DNA from: Candidatus Vogelbacteria bacterium
GTDB lineage: Bacteria; Patescibacteriota; Minisyncoccia; Phycocordibacterales; XYD1-FULL-46-19
Reading direction: 5' to 3'
DNA length: 12,883 bases
Assembly: GCA_026395035.1 (NCBI GenBank)
Contig: JAPLZN010000020.1
Coordinates: 1-12,883, forward strand
A program made the position numbers and the translations under genes. Numbering within the stretch: the stretch's first letter is position 1; every line of letters starts with the position of its first letter. The notes beneath the pieces were generated by a model, which did not search any database, was not told where the DNA came from, and saw nothing but the letters and a program-made list of their open reading frames with translations. Below are positions 2,249-7,304 of the stretch, piece after piece.

Positions 2249-2313
2249 ATTTGTAAAAAAATTAATATTTTAATTTGCAAAACAGTGAGTTATGCACAGA
2301 AAATGCTAAAAGA

Positions 2314-2346
2314 CATGTCCTTGACTTTTATCGGACATGGTATACT
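2314..2346 (+). promoter_or_regulatory. Promoter overlapped by an operator-like inverted repeat
   Basis: TATACT (2341-2346) is a good -10 box, 12 bases before the ATG at 2359. TTGACT at 2321-2326 resembles a -35 box, but the 14-base spacing is short. The perfect inverted repeat CATGTCC (2314-2320) / GGACATG (2333-2339) brackets the TTGACT, a layout typical of a dimeric repressor site. The transcript leader would be only a few bases long. Confidence 0.45.
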
Positions 2347-2358
2347 GCGAGGAACGTT

Positions 2359-3063
2359 ATGGTTTTACGCAAGAATTTTCGTCGGCATAAAGGAAATTCG
2401 ACGACCAAGCTAATCATCTGGCTGGCGGTTTTGATTGTTCTGGCTTTCGGGGTTAGATTTTGGCAGACTCGGGAATCTTCAGTTAACGAGAACCGAACAG
2501 CGACTTCAACCTCGGTGGTTTCGACCAGCACGGCGAGTGTTTCCTCTTGGACAAAATTGCGGGATCGCGCCGGGATTTTCGAGGTTTCCTATCCTCGTCG
2601 GGTTTTTAAATTGGCGGAAAAACCGGCGGTTGTTCCGTCCGCCTGGACGGAGAAAACAAGAGCTCAAGTTTTGACTCACACTATTCCGATTCAACATTGT
2701 GGTCTCTCTGGCTTGCCGGAGCACTGCACGCCTTCGACAACCGATATTTCGATCAGTTTTTTTGTGTTGGAGCGTAGTTTCAATGATGTTTTTAAGGAGC
2801 TCAAAAAAACCTTCGGCGACCTGCCGGTCGTCACTCTCGATGGACATCAAGGGGTGCGATTTGAACAAGGGGTGGAAGGGGAGGGAATCGTCTATACGGT
2901 CCTACCGGTCAACGACACAAAAACTCTTTTTATCGGCCGATCTTACCTCGACGAACAGATCGTCGGGGGGTATAAGGGGGCGAAAGATTTTATTCGCCTG
3001 GCCGAACAGAAGAAACTCTACGACGAAGTGATTGCGACTTTTAAATTCCGCCCAGCTTTCTAA
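2359..3063 (+). CDS. Membrane-anchored hypothetical protein
   Basis: The ATG at 2359 was chosen because GAGGA (2348-2352) sits just before it. The longer open frame upstream starts before the promoter-like boxes at 2321-2346. The 234-residue protein has a basic N-terminus (MVLRKNFRRHKG), one membrane helix at about residues 18-35 (LIIWLAVLIVLAFGVRFW), and a Ser/Thr-rich linker at about 40-60 (TATSTSVVSTSTASVSS). A predicted extracytoplasmic domain follows, rich in beta-strand-like alternation (GIFEVSYPRRVF near its start, IATFKF at its end). The topology is N-in with the domain outside. Small anchored proteins with this layout are common in Patescibacteria, but I cannot name a family or function. 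No downstream partner shares its transcript clearly, because a strong palindrome and a new promoter follow. Confidence 0.72.
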   Translation: MVLRKNFRRHKGNSTTKLIIWLAVLIVLAFGVRFWQTRESSVNENRTATSTSVVSTSTASVSSWTKLRDRAGIFEVSYPRRVFKLAEKPAVVPSAWTEKTRAQVLTHTIPIQHCGLSGLPEHCTPSTTDISISFFVLERSFNDVFKELKKTFGDLPVVTLDGHQGVRFEQGVEGEGIVYTVLPVNDTKTLFIGRSYLDEQIVGGYKGAKDFIRLAEQKKLYDEVIATFKFRPAF

Positions 3064-3064
3064 T

Positions 3065-3150
3065 GGGGTTGACCCTGTTAGAGAACGCCCTCCCGCTTTG
3101 GCGGGACGGCTTCGGCCGCTTTGGGGCGGCCTTTCTCTAACGGGGTTGAC
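3065..3150. repeat. Multi-branched palindromic element upstream of tuf
   Basis: The outer 13-bp stem pairs 3073-3085 (CCCTGTTAGAGAA) with 3133-3145 (TTCTCTAACGGGG), with one G-T pair. Inside it, CGCCC (3086-3090) pairs with GGGCG (3124-3128). Two perfect hairpins sit within that: CCCGC-TTTG-GCGGG (3092-3105) and CGGC-TTCG-GCCG (3107-3118). The word GGGGTTGAC is directly repeated at both edges (3065-3073 and 3142-3150). No T-run follows, so this is not a standard terminator. It resembles a dispersed REP- or MITE-like element, and its right edge supplies the tuf -35 box. Confidence 0.7.
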
Positions 3151-3173
3151 TTAAGCTTCCGTTCTGTTAAGAT
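3146..3173 (+). promoter_or_regulatory. Candidate promoter for tuf-rpsJ
   Basis: TTGACT (3146-3151) and TAAGAT (3168-3173) are spaced by 16 bases, matching consensus at 5/6 and 4/6 positions. The -35 box lies inside the right edge of the palindromic element. Transcription would start near 3180, leaving a leader of about 110 bases before tuf. Confidence 0.45.
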
Positions 3174-3178
3174 ATATG

Positions 3179-3240
3179 GTACGCTTGAGTGCGTGCTTTT
3201 TATTGTATTAACCTTGCCTCCGGGTTGTTCTCGGGGCAGG
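3179..3240 (+). promoter_or_regulatory. Structured leader of tuf with two hairpins
   Basis: GTACGC (3179-3184) pairs with GCGTGC (3191-3196) and is followed by five T (3197-3201), which looks like a small terminator or attenuator. A second hairpin of about 11 bp spans 3213-3240 (TGCC and CCGGG pair with CTCGG and GGCA, loop TTGTT). The first hairpin may instead end transcripts of the upstream gene. No Shine-Dalgarno is present before the tuf ATG. Confidence 0.4.
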
Positions 3241-3290
3241 CGAAAAAATTAGTAATTTAGTAATTAGTCATAAGTTTAAGAATAAAGAAT

Positions 3291-4493
3291 ATGGCAGATA
3301 AATTTGATCGGTCCAAGCCGCACATGAATGTGGGCACTATCGGCCACGTTGACCACGGCAAAACGACCACCACTGCGGCGATTTTGCATGTCTTGAATCT
3401 GGCAAAAGATCAGGGCTACAGCGCTCGCGTGGAAGGCGTAGATAATATCGATAACGCGCCGGAAGAAAAGGCTCGTGGGATTACTATTGCGCTTCACCAC
3501 TCCGAATACTCGACCCCTAAGCGTCATTACGCGCACATCGACGCTCCGGGACACGCTGACTACATCAAAAACATGATCACCGGGGCCGCTCAGATGGACG
3601 GAGCCGTGCTGGTTGTCGCGGCCCCTGATGGCGCGATGCCACAGACGCGCGAGCACGTGCTTTTGGCTCGCCAAGTCGGTGTACCGAAGATGCTGGTTTA
3701 CCTCAACAAGTGCGACATGGTGGATGATCCGGAAATGATCGACCTCGTAGAGGAAGAAATTCGCGAACTTTTGACCAAGCAGAACTTTGATGGAGCCAAC
3801 ACTCCGATTATCCGCGGTTCCTCATTGAAGGCTTTGGAAGCCAAAGACCTGAATGATCCGTGGGCAATTAAAATCTTGGACCTGGTCAAGGCAATGGATG
3901 AATTCTTCCCGGATCCGATTCGTGAAACCGACAAGCCGTTTTTGATGCCAATCGAAGACATCTTTTCGATTGAAGGTCGTGGCACTGTTGTGACCGGCCG
4001 TATCGAACGCGGTATCGTGAAGGTGGGTGAGGAAATCGAAGTGGTCGGACTTAAACCGACGGCCAAGACGACCATCACCGGAATTGAAATGTTCAACAAA
4101 CAGCTCGACGAGGGGATGGCGGGCGACAATGCCGGCGTGCTCTTGCGTGGTCTGAAGAAGGAGGATGTTACCCGTGGCCAGGTGTTGGCCAAGCCGGGTT
4201 CCATCACCCCGCATACCGATTTCGTGGCTGAGGTCTACATTCTGACCAAGGAAGAAGGCGGTCGCCATACTCCGTTCTTTACCGGCTACAAGCCGCAGTT
4301 CTATATCCGCACGACGGATGTGACTGGTGATGTGACCCTGCCGGAAGAAGTGAAAATGGTTATGCCAGGCGATACGGTGACTTTCAATGTCAAATTGGTC
4401 GCTCCGGTTGCTATGGAAGACAAGATGCGCTTCGCGATTCGCGAAGGGGGCAAGACGGTCGGCGCGGGGGTAGTTACAAAGATCACCGCCTAA
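3291..4493 (+). CDS. tuf: Translation elongation factor Tu
   Basis: This GTPase carries aminoacyl-tRNA to the ribosomal A site in the cytoplasm. The 400-residue product is full length for the family. The G1 P-loop GHVDHGKT is at residues 18-25, the switch I word ARGITI follows, G3 reads DAPGHADY (most relatives have DCPGHADY), then [12 protein letters not shown], and G4 reads NKCD. Domain 2 ([11 protein letters not shown]) and domain 3 ([21 protein letters not shown]) are intact. The residues after ARGITI read ALHHSEY instead of the common NTSHVEY, a lineage-type variant. The gene starts with ATG and no Shine-Dalgarno. It lies 91 bases upstream of rpsJ, as in the str-S10 arrangement of many bacteria, but no fusA precedes it; an unrelated membrane protein gene does. 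Probable cotranscription with rpsJ. Confidence 0.98.
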
Positions 4494-4584: not shown

Positions 4585-4977
4585 ATGCCCGTAAAAACCC
4601 CTACAACTAAAAAGACCGTCACCCGCGCTCCGCGCGCTAAGGCTAAGCCGAAAGCGGAGGTGGAAAAGGAACTGTCCAAGCTCCGTATCAAGGTGTCTGC
4701 CTACGAGAACAAAATCTTGGACGCCAGCGTGAAGCAGATTGTGGATACCGCTCTGCGGTACGACGGCAAGGTGCGGGGACCGATTCCGTTGCCTACCGAG
4801 ATCAAGAAATACACGGTCAATCGTGGAGCGTTCATCGACAAGAACTCGCGCGAACAGTTTGAAATGCGGACACACAAGCGCGTGATCGACATCATGAATC
4901 CGTCCCCGAAGATTATCGAGAATCTCACCAATCTCAATCTGCCGTCGGGGGTGAATATTGGTGTGAAGATGCTGTAA
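4585..4977 (+). CDS. rpsJ: 30S ribosomal protein S10 with N-terminal extension
   Basis: S10 is a head protein of the small ribosomal subunit and also partners NusB in antitermination in other bacteria. The S10 core runs from about residue 32 (LRIKVSAYENKILD) to the end and contains GPIPLPTE, RTHKRVIDI and NLPSGV. About 30 extra residues rich in Lys, Ala, Pro and Thr precede the core. With 130 residues it is longer than the usual 102-105, and no internal ATG offers a shorter start. The C-terminus reads VNIGVKML, where most S10 proteins have an acidic residue at the Gly position (as in VDIEIKL). The last 85 bases are repeated downstream at 5641-5726. A terminator follows at once, so rpsJ is cut off from rplC. 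Confidence 0.96.
   Translation: MPVKTPTTKKTVTRAPRAKAKPKAEVEKELSKLRIKVSAYENKILDASVKQIVDTALRYDGKVRGPIPLPTEIKKYTVNRGAFIDKNSREQFEMRTHKRVIDIMNPSPKIIENLTNLNLPSGVNIGVKML
4893..4977 (+). repeat. Direct repeat, copy 1: 3' end of intact rpsJ
   Basis: These 85 bases, up to and including the TAA, match 5641-5726 with five substitutions and one inserted G in copy 2. Four of the five substitutions are synonymous (ATT/ATC twice, ACC/ACG, AAT/AAC). One changes Gly to Asp. The distance between copies is 748 bases, with hicBA between them. Confidence 0.93.
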
Positions 4978-4993
4978 AAGTATATATCAGCAC

Positions 4994-5019
4994 AAAAAAT
5001 CCTCGTATGGGGATTTTTT
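4994..5019. terminator. Terminator after rpsJ copy 1
   Basis: AAAAAATCC (4994-5002) and GGATTTTTT (5011-5019) form a perfect 9-bp stem with an 8-base loop. The T-rich arm gives the U-tract, and the symmetric A-tract could make it work in both directions. It lies 16 bases after the rpsJ stop. Confidence 0.75.
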
Positions 5020-5049
5020 GTTGGGTTTCATTTTGACCACATTTGCGCG

Positions 5050-5078
5050 TTGCAAAATTGCCGTAAATGAGCAATACT
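5050..5078 (+). promoter_or_regulatory. Weak candidate promoter of hicBA
   Basis: TTGCAA (5050-5055) and AATACT (5073-5078) are spaced by 17 bases and each match consensus at 4/6 positions. The start site would fall almost on the hicB ATG (5086), implying a leaderless message. TTGACC at 5033-5038 is an alternative -35 box without a good -10. Confidence 0.27.
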
Positions 5079-5085
5079 TATTCAC

Positions 5086-5391
5086 ATGAATACGCCAAAG
5101 GCAGGAGCCGTGAGATGTATAGTTTTTAAAGAAGGCGATACTTGGTATGGTGTAGCTTTGGAGTTTAATATTGTTGAATCGGCCGATGATTACGATGTCG
5201 CGATGAACAATTTGCAGGAAGCAATCCAGGGCTATGTGGAATCTCAACGAAAAATAAAAGGCTCTTATCGTATCTCCCCACTCAATCAAAAGTCAGATGA
5301 AGAATATGAACAGCTTTGGAAGAACCTTAACGCCGGCAAACCCATACCTTCGCCGATTAATGTTAGATATTACGGGGTGACAAGAGTCTAA
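5086..5391 (+). CDS. hicB: HicB-family antitoxin
   Basis: The 101-residue product has the HicB partial RNase H-like fold signature: a first strand RCIVFKEGDTWYGVALEFN, then a short loop with acidic ESADDYDVAMNNLQEAI, then a helix (QGYVESQ). In this family the domain neutralises the HicA toxin and often represses the operon through a C-terminal DNA-binding region. Here the C-terminal 40 residues do not show a clear ribbon-helix-helix or helix-turn-helix, so autoregulation cannot be inferred. hicA follows after 3 bases, which suggests translational coupling. The order antitoxin-toxin is one of the two known arrangements. The gene has no Shine-Dalgarno and sits in the unit between the two rpsJ ends. 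The call rests on the fold pattern and the neighbouring HicA. Confidence 0.82.
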   Translation: MNTPKAGAVRCIVFKEGDTWYGVALEFNIVESADDYDVAMNNLQEAIQGYVESQRKIKGSYRISPLNQKSDEEYEQLWKNLNAGKPIPSPINVRYYGVTRV

Positions 5392-5394
5392 TTA

Positions 5395-5634
5395 ATGCCC
5401 AACGGAATTAATAATTGGAATTTTAACGACGTTGTGACACTCCTAAAAGAGAATGGCTTTACTCTTAATCATGTGAAAGGAAGCCATTATTTTTATATCG
5501 GCTATGTTGGTGCAAAATCTCGACAGGTTTGTGTTCCCAAGCATAGTAAGCTGGTTTTTAAACCCCGGACATTGAAGAGTATGATTTTACAATCAGGTTT
5601 ATCCCCTAACATTTGGGGACTGGGTAAAAAGTAG
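5395..5634 (+). CDS. hicA: HicA-family mRNA interferase toxin
   Basis: The 79-residue product has the HicA/YcfA double-stranded-RNA-binding-like fold. A helix NFNDVVTLLKENGF is followed by strands NHVKGSHYFYIG and QVCVPKHSKLVFKP, then the final helix TLKSMILQSGLS. The Gly-Ser-His of HicA active sites is present with His31 as the catalytic residue, so the toxin looks intact. HicA proteins cut mRNA and tmRNA when the unstable HicB antitoxin is lost, causing growth arrest. It begins 3 bases after the hicB stop, with no good Shine-Dalgarno, so expression should depend on hicB translation. It ends only 6 bases before the second rpsJ 3'-end copy. A solo role outside a toxin-antitoxin pair is unlikely. 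Confidence 0.88.
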   Translation: MPNGINNWNFNDVVTLLKENGFTLNHVKGSHYFYIGYVGAKSRQVCVPKHSKLVFKPRTLKSMILQSGLSPNIWGLGKK

Positions 5635-5640
5635 AAGCCT

Positions 5641-5726
5641 CATGAATCCGTCCCCGAAGATCATCGAGAATCTCACGAACCTCAATCTGCCGTCGGGGGG
5701 TGAATATCGATGTGAAGATGCTGTAA
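5641..5726 (+). pseudogene. rpsJ': Frameshifted 3'-end remnant of rpsJ (repeat copy 2)
   Basis: The 86 bases repeat 4893-4977. They encode the last 28 S10 residues from MNPSPKIIENL onward, but one extra G in the run after CCGTC (six G instead of five) shifts the frame. No upstream rpsJ sequence is attached. Ignoring the extra G, it would end VNIDVKML, with the acidic residue that S10 proteins normally carry. It is followed 28 bases later by a strong terminator, plausibly the original end of a tuf-rpsJ transcript. Confidence 0.92.
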
Positions 5727-5754
5727 ACAAGTACAAAGTAGTAAGTAGTAAATC

Positions 5755-5790
5755 AAACCGCCCTGGGCTTTGCCTGGGGCGGTTTTGGTT
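5755..5790. terminator. Bidirectional terminator
   Basis: AAACCGCCC (5755-5763) and GGGCGGTTT (5777-5785) pair perfectly. An inner GGGC/GCCT helix closes a 3-base loop. T-rich sequence follows on the plus strand (TTTTGGTTT), and GGTTTGATTT follows on the minus strand. It can end transcripts from the rpsJ/hicBA side and from the minus-strand gene that ends at 5826. Confidence 0.85.
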
Positions 5791-5825
5791 TCTAACACAA
5801 AGATAACTGAAAATCGGCGAGAGTT

Positions 5826-6251
5826 TTATCTCTCTACACCGAAGAGGGCCATCAGTAGACGCTTCCAGAGGGACAATTTTTCGCGGGGAGCTTTTTTCTC
5901 GGCTGACCCACCACCCCCACCTCCACCGCCGATATTATTTTGGATACTGACGATATTATCTCCGCCCCTGGTCGGTTGTTCGTCCTCTTTTTTCTTGGCC
6001 GGTTCAGTCATCGCAGCTTCTCGGCGTAGTTGCTCGATTCGTTCCTGTCGGGCGGCTTCTTGTTCGCGCCCCTGCTCGATTTGCTCGGCCTCATCTTCTT
6101 GACTGTTTGTTTCGGCGACCGGCTCCAGTTCTGATTCTTTCTCATTGTCCGTTTCCGTTGACTCGGGGAACATCTCAATTACTTCAGCGGTCGGTTCCTG
6201 ACCCTCTTCCTCGTTTGGTTGCTCCTGATTTGGGGCTTGTTCCATACTCAT
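5826..6251 (-). CDS. Acidic disordered protein with poly-Gly tract and basic amphipathic tail
   Basis: This 141-residue protein is not recognisable as a family. Residues 1-80 are extremely rich in Glu and Gln (EQPNEEEGQEP, QEDEAEQIEQG) and probably disordered or helical. Residues about 60-80 (REQEAARQERIEQLRREAA) suit a charged helix. Eight consecutive Gly occupy 108-115. The tail (about 120-141, REKLSLWKRLLMALFGVER) is a basic amphipathic helix that could bind membrane or a partner. There is no signal peptide. A -10 box (TACAAT) lies upstream. No Shine-Dalgarno is visible; the ATG two codons further in (6245) is an alternative start. The terminator at 5755-5790 follows. The poly-Gly tract is not in repeat DNA of one codon only, so slippage is possible but not evident. 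Confidence 0.6.
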   Translation of the reverse strand: MSMEQAPNQEQPNEEEGQEPTAEVIEMFPESTETDNEKESELEPVAETNSQEDEAEQIEQGREQEAARQERIEQLRREAAMTEPAKKKEDEQPTRGGDNIVSIQNNIGGGGGGGGSAEKKAPREKLSLWKRLLMALFGVER

Positions 6252-6284
6252 ATTATTTTTTTTGTTTTTCCAGTAATTGCTGTA

Positions 6285-6312
6285 ATTGTATCAGCTCTGG
6301 GGCACAAGTAAA
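6285..6312 (-). promoter_or_regulatory. Candidate promoter of the acidic poly-Gly protein gene
   Basis: On the minus strand, TTTACT (plus 6307-6312) and TACAAT (plus 6285-6290) are spaced by 16 bases, matching 4/6 and 5/6 positions. Transcription would begin near 6278, about 27 bases before the ATG at 6251. Confidence 0.45.
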
Positions 6313-6349
6313 AACCTGTTATCCACCCTCTCGAGCTATTTTAAAAAGA

Positions 6350-6376
6350 AAGCCCTCACGACGAGCGTGGGGGCTT
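6350..6376 (-). terminator. Terminator overlapping the amidase stop codon
   Basis: AAGCCC (6350-6355) and CACG (6357-6360) pair with CGTG (6366-6369) and GGGCTT (6371-6376) around the loop ACGAG. On the minus strand the hairpin is followed by TTCTTTTT. The amidase stop codon (plus 6356-6358) lies inside the stem, so the last codons of the gene double as the terminator arm. Confidence 0.75.
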
Positions 6377-7000
6377 TTTGAGTTTTCCGTCATTTGACGG
6401 TTTCACCTCCAATCGGGCAGATGGGGTTGGGGCCGGCGCGGGTTTCGGTTTAAGCTCGGTCGACAACTCCTTGAAGGTGAGCGGTAACTTGTCGTCATTC
6501 AATCGTGCCACCTCACTGATCAGTTTCTCGAGCGGGAAAGTCCGGCCCGGGCAGTCCTCGTGATGATGAGTGATGGTCACGGGCGACGGATCAATCCGAT
6601 AACGCCGGCAGAGATCGGCTGACAACTGAACCAGTTTTAAGAATTGCTTTTCATTGACCGGGTGATTCCGCCCGTCTTCCAGGGCAATACCGATGTCGGT
6701 CAAATTACGCAAATTGTCCTTACCGGCGTGGGCGCCGATTTCGGATTCCGGTCGAAGGACTTCAATCTGCCCGGTCTGTCCGATCCAGTAATGATAGCCG
6801 CAGTCGGACCAACCGCGCGCGAGATGATCGTCCCGGATTTGATCTGTACTGATCGTCCCTTGCGTATGATGGACGGTAAGGCCGTATACCGTTCGGCCGT
6901 CGGGCGATTTGGGCGAGAAGCTGAAGCGGATCTCGTAGGTCGTGCCGAGATAGCCGATCAGCAGGACGAGGCCGAGCAAAGCGAACGCTTTAGTGAACAT
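6356..7000 (-). CDS. Secreted or anchored N-acetylmuramoyl-L-alanine amidase (Amidase_2/PGRP fold)
   Basis: The enzyme should cut the amide bond between N-acetylmuramic acid and the peptide of peptidoglycan, using zinc. The start at 7000 is set by AAGGAG upstream of the ATG; a longer frame upstream would run through the promoter. Of 214 residues, 4-18 form a signal peptide or membrane anchor (KAFALLGLVLLIGYL). The Amidase_2 domain spans about 38-170. Candidate zinc ligands are His44/45 (TVHHT), one of His145-147 and Cys150 (HHHEDCPG); the GYHYWIG word (68-74) supplies the usual Tyr. The His-to-Cys spacing is shorter than in T7 lysozyme or PGRPs. A Pro/Ala/Lys-rich tail (184-214) may bind the wall. 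It lies on the opposite strand inside a broken S10 operon. Wall remodelling or attack on a host cell are both possible. Confidence 0.85.
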   Translation of the reverse strand: MFTKAFALLGLVLLIGYLGTTYEIRFSFSPKSPDGRTVYGLTVHHTQGTISTDQIRDDHLARGWSDCGYHYWIGQTGQIEVLRPESEIGAHAGKDNLRNLTDIGIALEDGRNHPVNEKQFLKLVQLSADLCRRYRIDPSPVTITHHHEDCPGRTFPLEKLISEVARLNDDKLPLTFKELSTELKPKPAPAPTPSARLEVKPSNDGKLKKPPRSS

Positions 7001-7038
7001 GGTGAGCTCCTTAGACGAAAAGATCGAAATTTGCTCAA

Positions 7039-7067
7039 ACTGTATCGCAATGCCCACCTTCGGTCAA
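7039..7067 (-). promoter_or_regulatory. Promoter of the amidase gene
   Basis: On the minus strand, TTGACC (plus 7062-7067) and TACAGT (plus 7039-7044) are spaced by 17 bases, matching 5/6 and 4/6 positions. Its -35 box is only 6 bases from the -35 box of the opposite rplC promoter, so the two are back to back and could influence each other. Confidence 0.58.
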
Positions 7068-7073
7068 TCACCG

Positions 7074-7103
7074 TTGACTTTGGGGGAATATCTGTGATAG
7101 GAT
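7074..7103 (+). promoter_or_regulatory. Promoter of the rplC-rplD-rplW-rplB unit
   Basis: TTGACT (7074-7079) and TAGGAT (7098-7103) are spaced by 18 bases, matching 5/6 and 4/6 positions. Transcription would begin near 7110. The resulting leader is about 195 bases long, unusually long for this window. Confidence 0.5.
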
Positions 7104-7109
7104 ACGACC

Positions 7110-7304
7110 AAGCTCGTCGGAGCTCTTATTTATTAAAAATTGATTTTTTGAGTCGAAAGGGCTCAAAAATAGGGGTGGAGATTTGGATGCAGTTCGAGAC
7201 TGTGAGCGAAGTTCGTGACCAAGCTGTACAAAAGGTGGTACTGCGCGGGAGCGGACGAGTGAGCAGGCGATGAAATGCGCCAAATATGCGCCCCGTAACA
7301 TACC
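7110..7304 (+). promoter_or_regulatory. Long structured leader of rplC with T-box-like motif
   Basis: A hairpin forms from AGCTC-GTCG-GAGCT (about 7112-7125), and another from TTTTTGAG / CTCAAAAA (about 7145-7177). At 7232-7245, AAGGTGGTACTGCG matches the T-box core (AGGGTGGNACCGCG) with two changes. The seven bases TGGTACT (7236-7242) could bulge between GG and GCGC pairing with GCGCCC (7288-7293), the antiterminator geometry of T-boxes. I cannot identify a Stem I with a specifier codon, and the hairpin loop would be long, so this is a suggestion only. The leader ends at the rplC ATG with no Shine-Dalgarno. Confidence 0.3.

Follow-up and report, generated by a model that had tools for sequence, protein, structure and literature searches.

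The closest known counterpart of the locus studied here is the insertion of restriction-modification systems with long target duplication, reportedly set out by Nobusato et al. 2000 and Furuta et al. 2010. Integrative elements, in turn, insert at the 3' ends of tRNA or protein genes; the element brings a new end for the gene, and the original end comes to lie beyond the inserted DNA. The target duplications that accompany restriction-modification systems are described in the available text of PMC3874152 as long and variable, of the order of 100 bp, and this mode of insertion is also mentioned or cited in the accessible parts of PMC2654758, PMC3031569 and PMC1643837. In homology-facilitated illegitimate recombination, as presented in the available portions of PMC3240628, homology joins the DNA on one side only; in the E. 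coli study most products were partial duplications, of 109-950 bases in those sequenced, which that text ascribes to single crossover of circles, the predicted product being a deletion.

The locus bears on how small transposase-free toxin-antitoxin modules pass from one chromosome to another. We analyse a stretch of 12,883 nucleotides (the window) in which a hicBA pair lies between two copies of the 3' end of rpsJ, and we consider it probable that hicBA came with the rpsJ end of a relative, which now serves as the working end, and that the native end persists as a relic.

Two rpsJ ends around a hicBA module

The rpsJ product matches Pfam Ribosomal_S10 (2.5e-30) and NCBIfam rpsJ_bact (9e-37); the gene is preceded by that of EF-Tu (3291-4493), and the nearest named rpsJ loci are Parcubacteria-type records, such as a Kaiserbacteria genome, which marks the host as Patescibacteria-type. 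Its 3' end occurs twice (Table 1). Copy 1, of 87 bases, consists of the final 86 bases of rpsJ and one more, and copy 2 has 88 bases; they are 93% identical, start 748 bases apart and gave BLAST E-values of 5e-27 and 2e-27, which exclude a chance match by far. The hicBA module is flanked in this way by long direct repeats of rpsJ sequence, the relic beginning 5 bases past the hicA stop, and the GC content of the insert is lower than that of rpsJ. The initial annotation had reported a repeat of the rpsJ end 748 bases downstream around hicBA, exactly as we find it, and had given it a length of 85 bases, to which one base has to be added on each side.

Table 1. Features of the rpsJ-hicBA locus in the window
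Feature	Position	Strand	Remarks
rpsJ, working gene for ribosomal protein S10	4585..4977	+	130 aa, C-terminus ...VNIGVKML
Copy 1, working rpsJ 3' end, probably arrived with hicBA	4892..4978	+	repeat match
Terminator-like hairpin behind copy 1	4994..5019	+	by eye; absent from hairpin scan matches
hicB-like antitoxin gene	5086..5391	+	101 aa; adjoins hicA upstream; HicB-named relatives
hicA toxin gene	5395..5634	+	79 aa; Pfam PF07927 HicA_toxin
Copy 2, rpsJ 3' end relic with one-base insertion, probably the displaced native end	5640..5727	+	repeat match
Terminator-like hairpin behind copy 2, probably the native rpsJ terminator	5755..5785	+	14-pair stem

When the copies were realigned in the rpsJ frame, we recovered the five substitutions reported at the outset, four of them synonymous (ATT/ATC, ACC/ACG, AAT/AAC and ATT/ATC) and one, GGT/GAT, non-synonymous, exchanging Gly and Asp. 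The insertion described in copy 2 is likewise present, as one additional G within a run of G, and leaves this copy frameshifted. At the S10 position of the Gly/Asp difference, the 120 nearest proteins comprise 117 with Asp, one with Ser, one with Gly and one that is truncated; of 109 rpsJ loci scanned with a motif, 57 have Asp and 36 Glu, and 16 could not be read. Gly is thus rare at this position, and both counts agree with the first reading of the locus, in which the relic keeps Asp where Asp or Glu is usual and the working gene carries Gly. The closest S10 relatives (P0121-P0123) show 93-96% identity across about 80% of the protein.

The hicA product meets the HicA toxin profile PF07927 at 2.3e-10, with 40.8 bits against a cut-off of 27. 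For the product of the small gene upstream no match was found in Pfam, NCBIfam or PDB sequences; it has 317 other relatives, several of the close ones (for example P0004, 75%) being named HicB family by their source, and its predicted model contains three strands, two helices and one strand at a mean pLDDT of 83, features which together suggest a HicB-like antitoxin. Besides these two genes, the only open reading frame of at least 50 amino acids that lies wholly between the copies is one of 100 amino acids on the minus strand, which overlaps hicB and has no Pfam match. Neither the list of reading frames nor the Pfam search of the unit yielded an integrase or other recombinase between the repeats, which bears out the earlier statement that the unit holds no integrase. 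The hicB family of the window is patchy in its order (38 of 397 genomes), and among these 38 the window's own genome is the only one of its taxonomic family. Carriage by a phage or plasmid was considered and rejected, as none of the viral contigs, plasmids and phages searched gave a confirmed match to the hicB family; in the viral contigs there were five pattern matches, none of them confirmed. The window's own genome has a second HicA match (L033, G000 C26), near a contig end.

Among 107 other rpsJ loci, none has a strong repeat of the rpsJ 3' end up to 4 kb downstream, and weak matches to this end number three (E 6e-4); within rpsJ, the repeat is, as far as seen, particular to the window. 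In a set of 61 genomes, the window's own is the only one of its genus. In another genome (L026, G059) rpsJ is followed by HicBA and by one more pair of small genes, which by eye looks toxin-antitoxin-like, with no rpsJ repeat, so that the rpsJ end may be a hotspot for such pairs. An rplC match lies downstream in 62 of 68 tabulated rpsJ loci, either near or as much as about 3 kb away, and from this varied distance the rpsJ-rplC interval seems tolerant of insertions. In the window the interval (4978-7304) measures about 2.3 kb, and it also holds a minus-strand Amidase_2 gene and an acidic open reading frame of 141 amino acids for which Pfam gave no match. Separately, P0002 (a close HicB relative, 86% identical to the HicB of the window) and P0169 (an S10 gene) come from the same source, and for each of them the longest contig measures 3268 bases; the two contigs are possibly one, which would then hold a second rpsJ-hicBA unit, or the equal lengths may be chance.

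Repeated gene ends at other toxin-antitoxin loci

For the survey, 700 bases on either side of hicA were compared, and a direct repeat spanning hicA was accepted at an E-value of 1e-6 or better, so that the position of the module between the copies is a consequence of the search design. We took 140 HicA/HicB loci from the window's order (30 of 43 listed hicB places, 30 from a second listing and 80 more from that listing by rank); the 13 passed over in taking these 80 were mostly at contig ends or beside a chosen locus, and one had an inner stop. Of the 140 loci 138, which may include duplicate sites, were usable, their HicA matching the profile and neither flank being shorter than 300 bases; this left out L130 and L146.

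A spanning repeat was found at 22 of the 138 loci, the window included, and repeat flanking of hicBA is not unique to the window. The corresponding figures were 6 of 612 for random pivots in 20 stretches of the same order (Fisher p = 2e-12) and 4 of 95 for the small genes in those stretches (Fisher p = 0.0035, a modest contrast, far weaker than that with random pivots). In sets made up of the 30 loci returned per search, spanning repeats were present at 3 of 30 ParE loci, 2 of 29 AbiEii loci and 0 of 28 glycosyltransferase loci; with flanks of 1200 bases these values became 3 of 30, 7 of 29 and 0 of 28, respectively, the random control applying to 700 bases only. Two of the six random-pivot matches are themselves gene-end repeats, one ndk/AbiEii-like (L262) and one arsR-like (L267), both named by eye, and both recur among the four small-gene matches, so that the controls themselves contain cases of the phenomenon.

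Several arrangements were noted beside these counts. At L262, near 2290-3296, the ndk 3' end is repeated around an AbiEii-type gene, and at L345 what appears by eye to be the 3' end of rplT, a ribosomal protein gene, is repeated around an AbiEii gene. L130 (G269), which stayed outside the 138 because its HicA had no match to the search profile, carries hicB and a truncated hicA with an hsdS-like 3' end (named by eye) repeated on either side, and L129 (G057) is a hicB locus between 224-base direct repeats that are 96% identical.

In at least 12 of the 22 loci, the repeat is the end or near-end of an assigned intact neighbouring gene: rpsJ, gatB, pyrG, rny, recG, atpC (twice), an M48 peptidase gene, a GIY-YIG gene (L222), an amino-acid-kinase-type gene, an ABC transporter ATPase gene and an unassigned gene of 98 amino acids (L179). 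A thirteenth gene-end pair, of ppsA (L228), lies beyond the 700-base limit. The genes concerned are unrelated, and the scar repeats the 5' end in some cases and the 3' end in others; the pyrG repeat (L205) ends 27 bases before the gene end. The repeats that flank hicBA at L144, L160, L214 and L243 look non-coding and may be a different phenomenon, and at L161, L170, L177, L190, L230 and L239 no intact gene could be securely assigned to the repeat.

We then compared the copies in the 13 pairs that had an intact gene assigned, among the matches listed. In a local duplicate that drifts freely, about a quarter of the differences are expected to be synonymous; we counted 57 synonymous and 44 non-synonymous differences, with 25.9 synonymous expected (p = 6e-11 if the differences are independent), and 59 of the 101 differences fall at third codon positions. 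Among the pairs with at least five differences, eight of nine lie above the neutral synonymous fraction, the exception being rny, whose pair shows the opposite ratio of 1:5 synonymous to non-synonymous; the window pair alone, with four of five synonymous, gives p = 0.018 on few substitutions. From this synonymous excess, most of the divergence between copies would seem to predate the join, the two ends having mostly evolved in working genes before they met. The initial annotation had claimed for the window that the copies diverged mostly under selection, before the join, and the excess over 13 comparable pairs speaks in favour of that claim. At atpC in G367, the nearest relative (G334) agrees with the working copy at 15 sites, with the relic at 11 and with neither at 3; that it does not favour the relic counts against reading the relic as the native end.

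These data bear on whether the second rpsJ end could instead have been made on the spot. As proposed for restriction-modification insertion, the entry of the module might have duplicated some 90 bases at the end of the resident gene, the copies being identical at first and the spare one drifting afterwards. The anatomy agrees with this, as does a repeat length comparable to that given for restriction-modification systems, of the order of 100 bp, in the available text of PMC3874152; in addition, identity reaches 98-100% in some pairs, and most of the rny differences are non-synonymous. We nevertheless regard such a duplication as unlikely, given the synonymous excess over the 13 pairs and in the window itself, and given that the gatB copies, described below, are two alleles found in other genomes of the genus. 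In the pyrG, L179 and ppsA pairs, at 98-100% identity, a donor end and a local duplication are indistinguishable.

A site-specific integrative element that uses the rpsJ 3' end as attachment site, with its integrase elsewhere or lost, would account for a replacement end and a displaced native end, which are generally known as the usual outcome of such integration. It is a very improbable source of this locus, as the unit contains no recombinase, the hicB family is without a confirmed match in viral contigs, plasmids or phages, and the scars affect unrelated genes, some at the 5' end and some at the 3' end, which speaks against a common attachment site (one rpsJ unit being known). Integrase-type insertion at a fixed site was rejected on the same grounds, namely the missing recombinase, the different genes and the use of both gene ends, and the likeness first drawn to the 3'-end insertion of integrative elements at tRNA genes is not supported, with scars at 5' ends too and no recombinase. 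We also give very little credence to an assembly chimera of two metagenome strains: the source assembly is fragmented (158 contigs totalling 808,503 bases, with 85% completeness and 4% contamination), but a like architecture recurs with different genes in other genomes and, as the junction between hicA and copy 2 is where the match between the copies ends, a mix of strains inside the repeat would still need hicA beside an rpsJ fragment. A chance entry of hicBA into a tandem duplication that had long existed at the site is structurally possible but hardly credible, leaving both the enrichment around toxin-antitoxin modules and the synonymous excess unexplained.

Direction of replacement at gatB and a proposed route at rpsJ

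All 16 genomes of genus g69 have gatB. It stands directly behind hicBA in six of them, and these genes all start M-x-E-Y, with an extra Glu codon (6/6), while the remaining gatB genes of the genus are without this codon (10/10). One genome, G293, carries in order a truncated M-S-Y gatB behind its own promoter-like sequence, hicBA, and a working M-S-E-Y gatB; both forms are present there, the scar being the unlinked gatB form and the working start the hicBA-linked form. In five of the ten unlinked genomes, gatB starts 13-27 bases after the end of a gene of 331-345 codons that is similar at its C-terminus, with no insert; in four more another open reading frame or hicA intervenes before gatB, and in G401 no such reading frame was found before the gene. 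G395, counted among the ten, has a hicA match that ends about 129 bases before gatB, whose start and promoter-like sequence are of the unlinked form. At two adjacent sites in the G293 copies the relic matches the hicBA-linked genomes (by eye), which goes against a simple swap; this is the pattern that a crossover inside the repeat would leave, and two sites decide nothing.

In a gatB tree of 15 of the 16 genomes, the six hicBA-linked genomes lie on one side of a branch (91/98). In a tufA tree of 12 genomes, four of them hicBA-linked, the hicBA-gatB genomes are not set apart from G314, which has no hicBA there; this too goes against a simple swap, and hicBA at gatB may be either one old insertion or the product of repeated transfer. 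Comparison of the gatB starts across the genus shows that the two copies correspond to two alleles present in other genomes, and it gives the direction of replacement. The proposal made at the outset for rpsJ, that a module and a replacement gene end arrive together, gains from the G293 scar, with an unlinked relic and a hicBA-linked working gene, as well as from the synonymous excess in the 13 pairs.

The arrival of hicBA together with a relative's rpsJ end is supported by the substitution statistics and by analogy, the direction having been read at one other locus. By this analogy we infer the same direction of replacement at rpsJ; the donor, the route of entry, the mode of joining and retention by addiction are likewise inferred. 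The source DNA would have come from a related bacterium with hicBA just behind rpsJ. RecA-type recombination inside rpsJ would have linked the 5' part already present to the 3' end brought in (copy 1), its hairpin and hicBA, and the far side would have been joined within the resident rpsJ 3' end, leaving copy 2 before its own terminator, where it would have been dispensable and could acquire the frameshift. The far join was possibly illegitimate, as in homology-facilitated illegitimate recombination; alternatively, a single crossover with a circle bearing the gene end plus hicBA could have produced both copies. The anatomy fits one homologous and one illegitimate joint, or a single-crossover circle, and either route would suffice. 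As the scars involve varied genes and both gene ends, and as the unit carries no recombinase and would need none, recombination by the host is a better fit than an integrase. Natural transformation is the likely route of entry: a ComEC-family gene was found in 36 of the 41 genomes searched, the window's included, and natural competence has been shown in Saccharibacteria, according to the available text of PMC10633639. Once in place, the toxin-antitoxin pair would make the insertion hard to lose.

A broader reading, which we put forward tentatively and hold to be rather doubtful, is that a toxin-antitoxin pair with a piece of a core-gene end might form a recombinase-free mobile unit in Patescibacteria, inserted by host recombination that swaps the gene end. 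The flanking repeats might allow the unit to loop out as a circle and to enter the same gene elsewhere, the conserved gene end serving as a portable address.

The proposed route seems to leave a readable scar, in which the old gene end is kept beside the new one, and such scars make the donor, direction and order of events testable from sequence alone. Along with a module, a genome may also receive a new end for an essential gene, here that of S10 with its rare Gly at a conserved acidic position. In small Patescibacteria-type genomes, with competence in one lineage, such modules could often be acquired by this route.

Comparison with known systems

With restriction-modification insertion, as far as the available texts describe it, the rpsJ unit shares an addictive module, the lack of a recombinase of its own and direct repeats of host sequence of about 100 bp. 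It differs in its cargo, hicBA and other toxin-antitoxin genes, and in its hosts, which are Patescibacteria-type genomes; moreover, the repeats here are gene ends with a synonymous excess between them, and at gatB they appear as two alleles and not as a duplication. Homology-facilitated illegitimate recombination, in the accessible account of it, combines a homologous with an illegitimate joint, brings in adjacent foreign DNA and involves no dedicated recombinase, as may have been the case here, but it is known from transformation experiments, whereas the events proposed here are read back from genome sequences. Unlike integrative elements, the window's unit has no integrase and no fixed site, and such units occur at both 5' and 3' gene ends.

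The module itself resembles an ordinary HicBA: as in other type II toxin-antitoxin modules of this kind, a HicA above the PF07927 cut-off is preceded by a small gene of a HicB-named family, and it is the location and the flanks that are unusual. A literature search, which covered few subscription journals, returned in the available texts no description of such gene-end scars for toxin-antitoxin genes. Three points are new in relation to the known systems: toxin-antitoxin genes as the cargo, in genomes of Patescibacteria type, an excess of synonymous differences between the copies, and the allele evidence from gatB.
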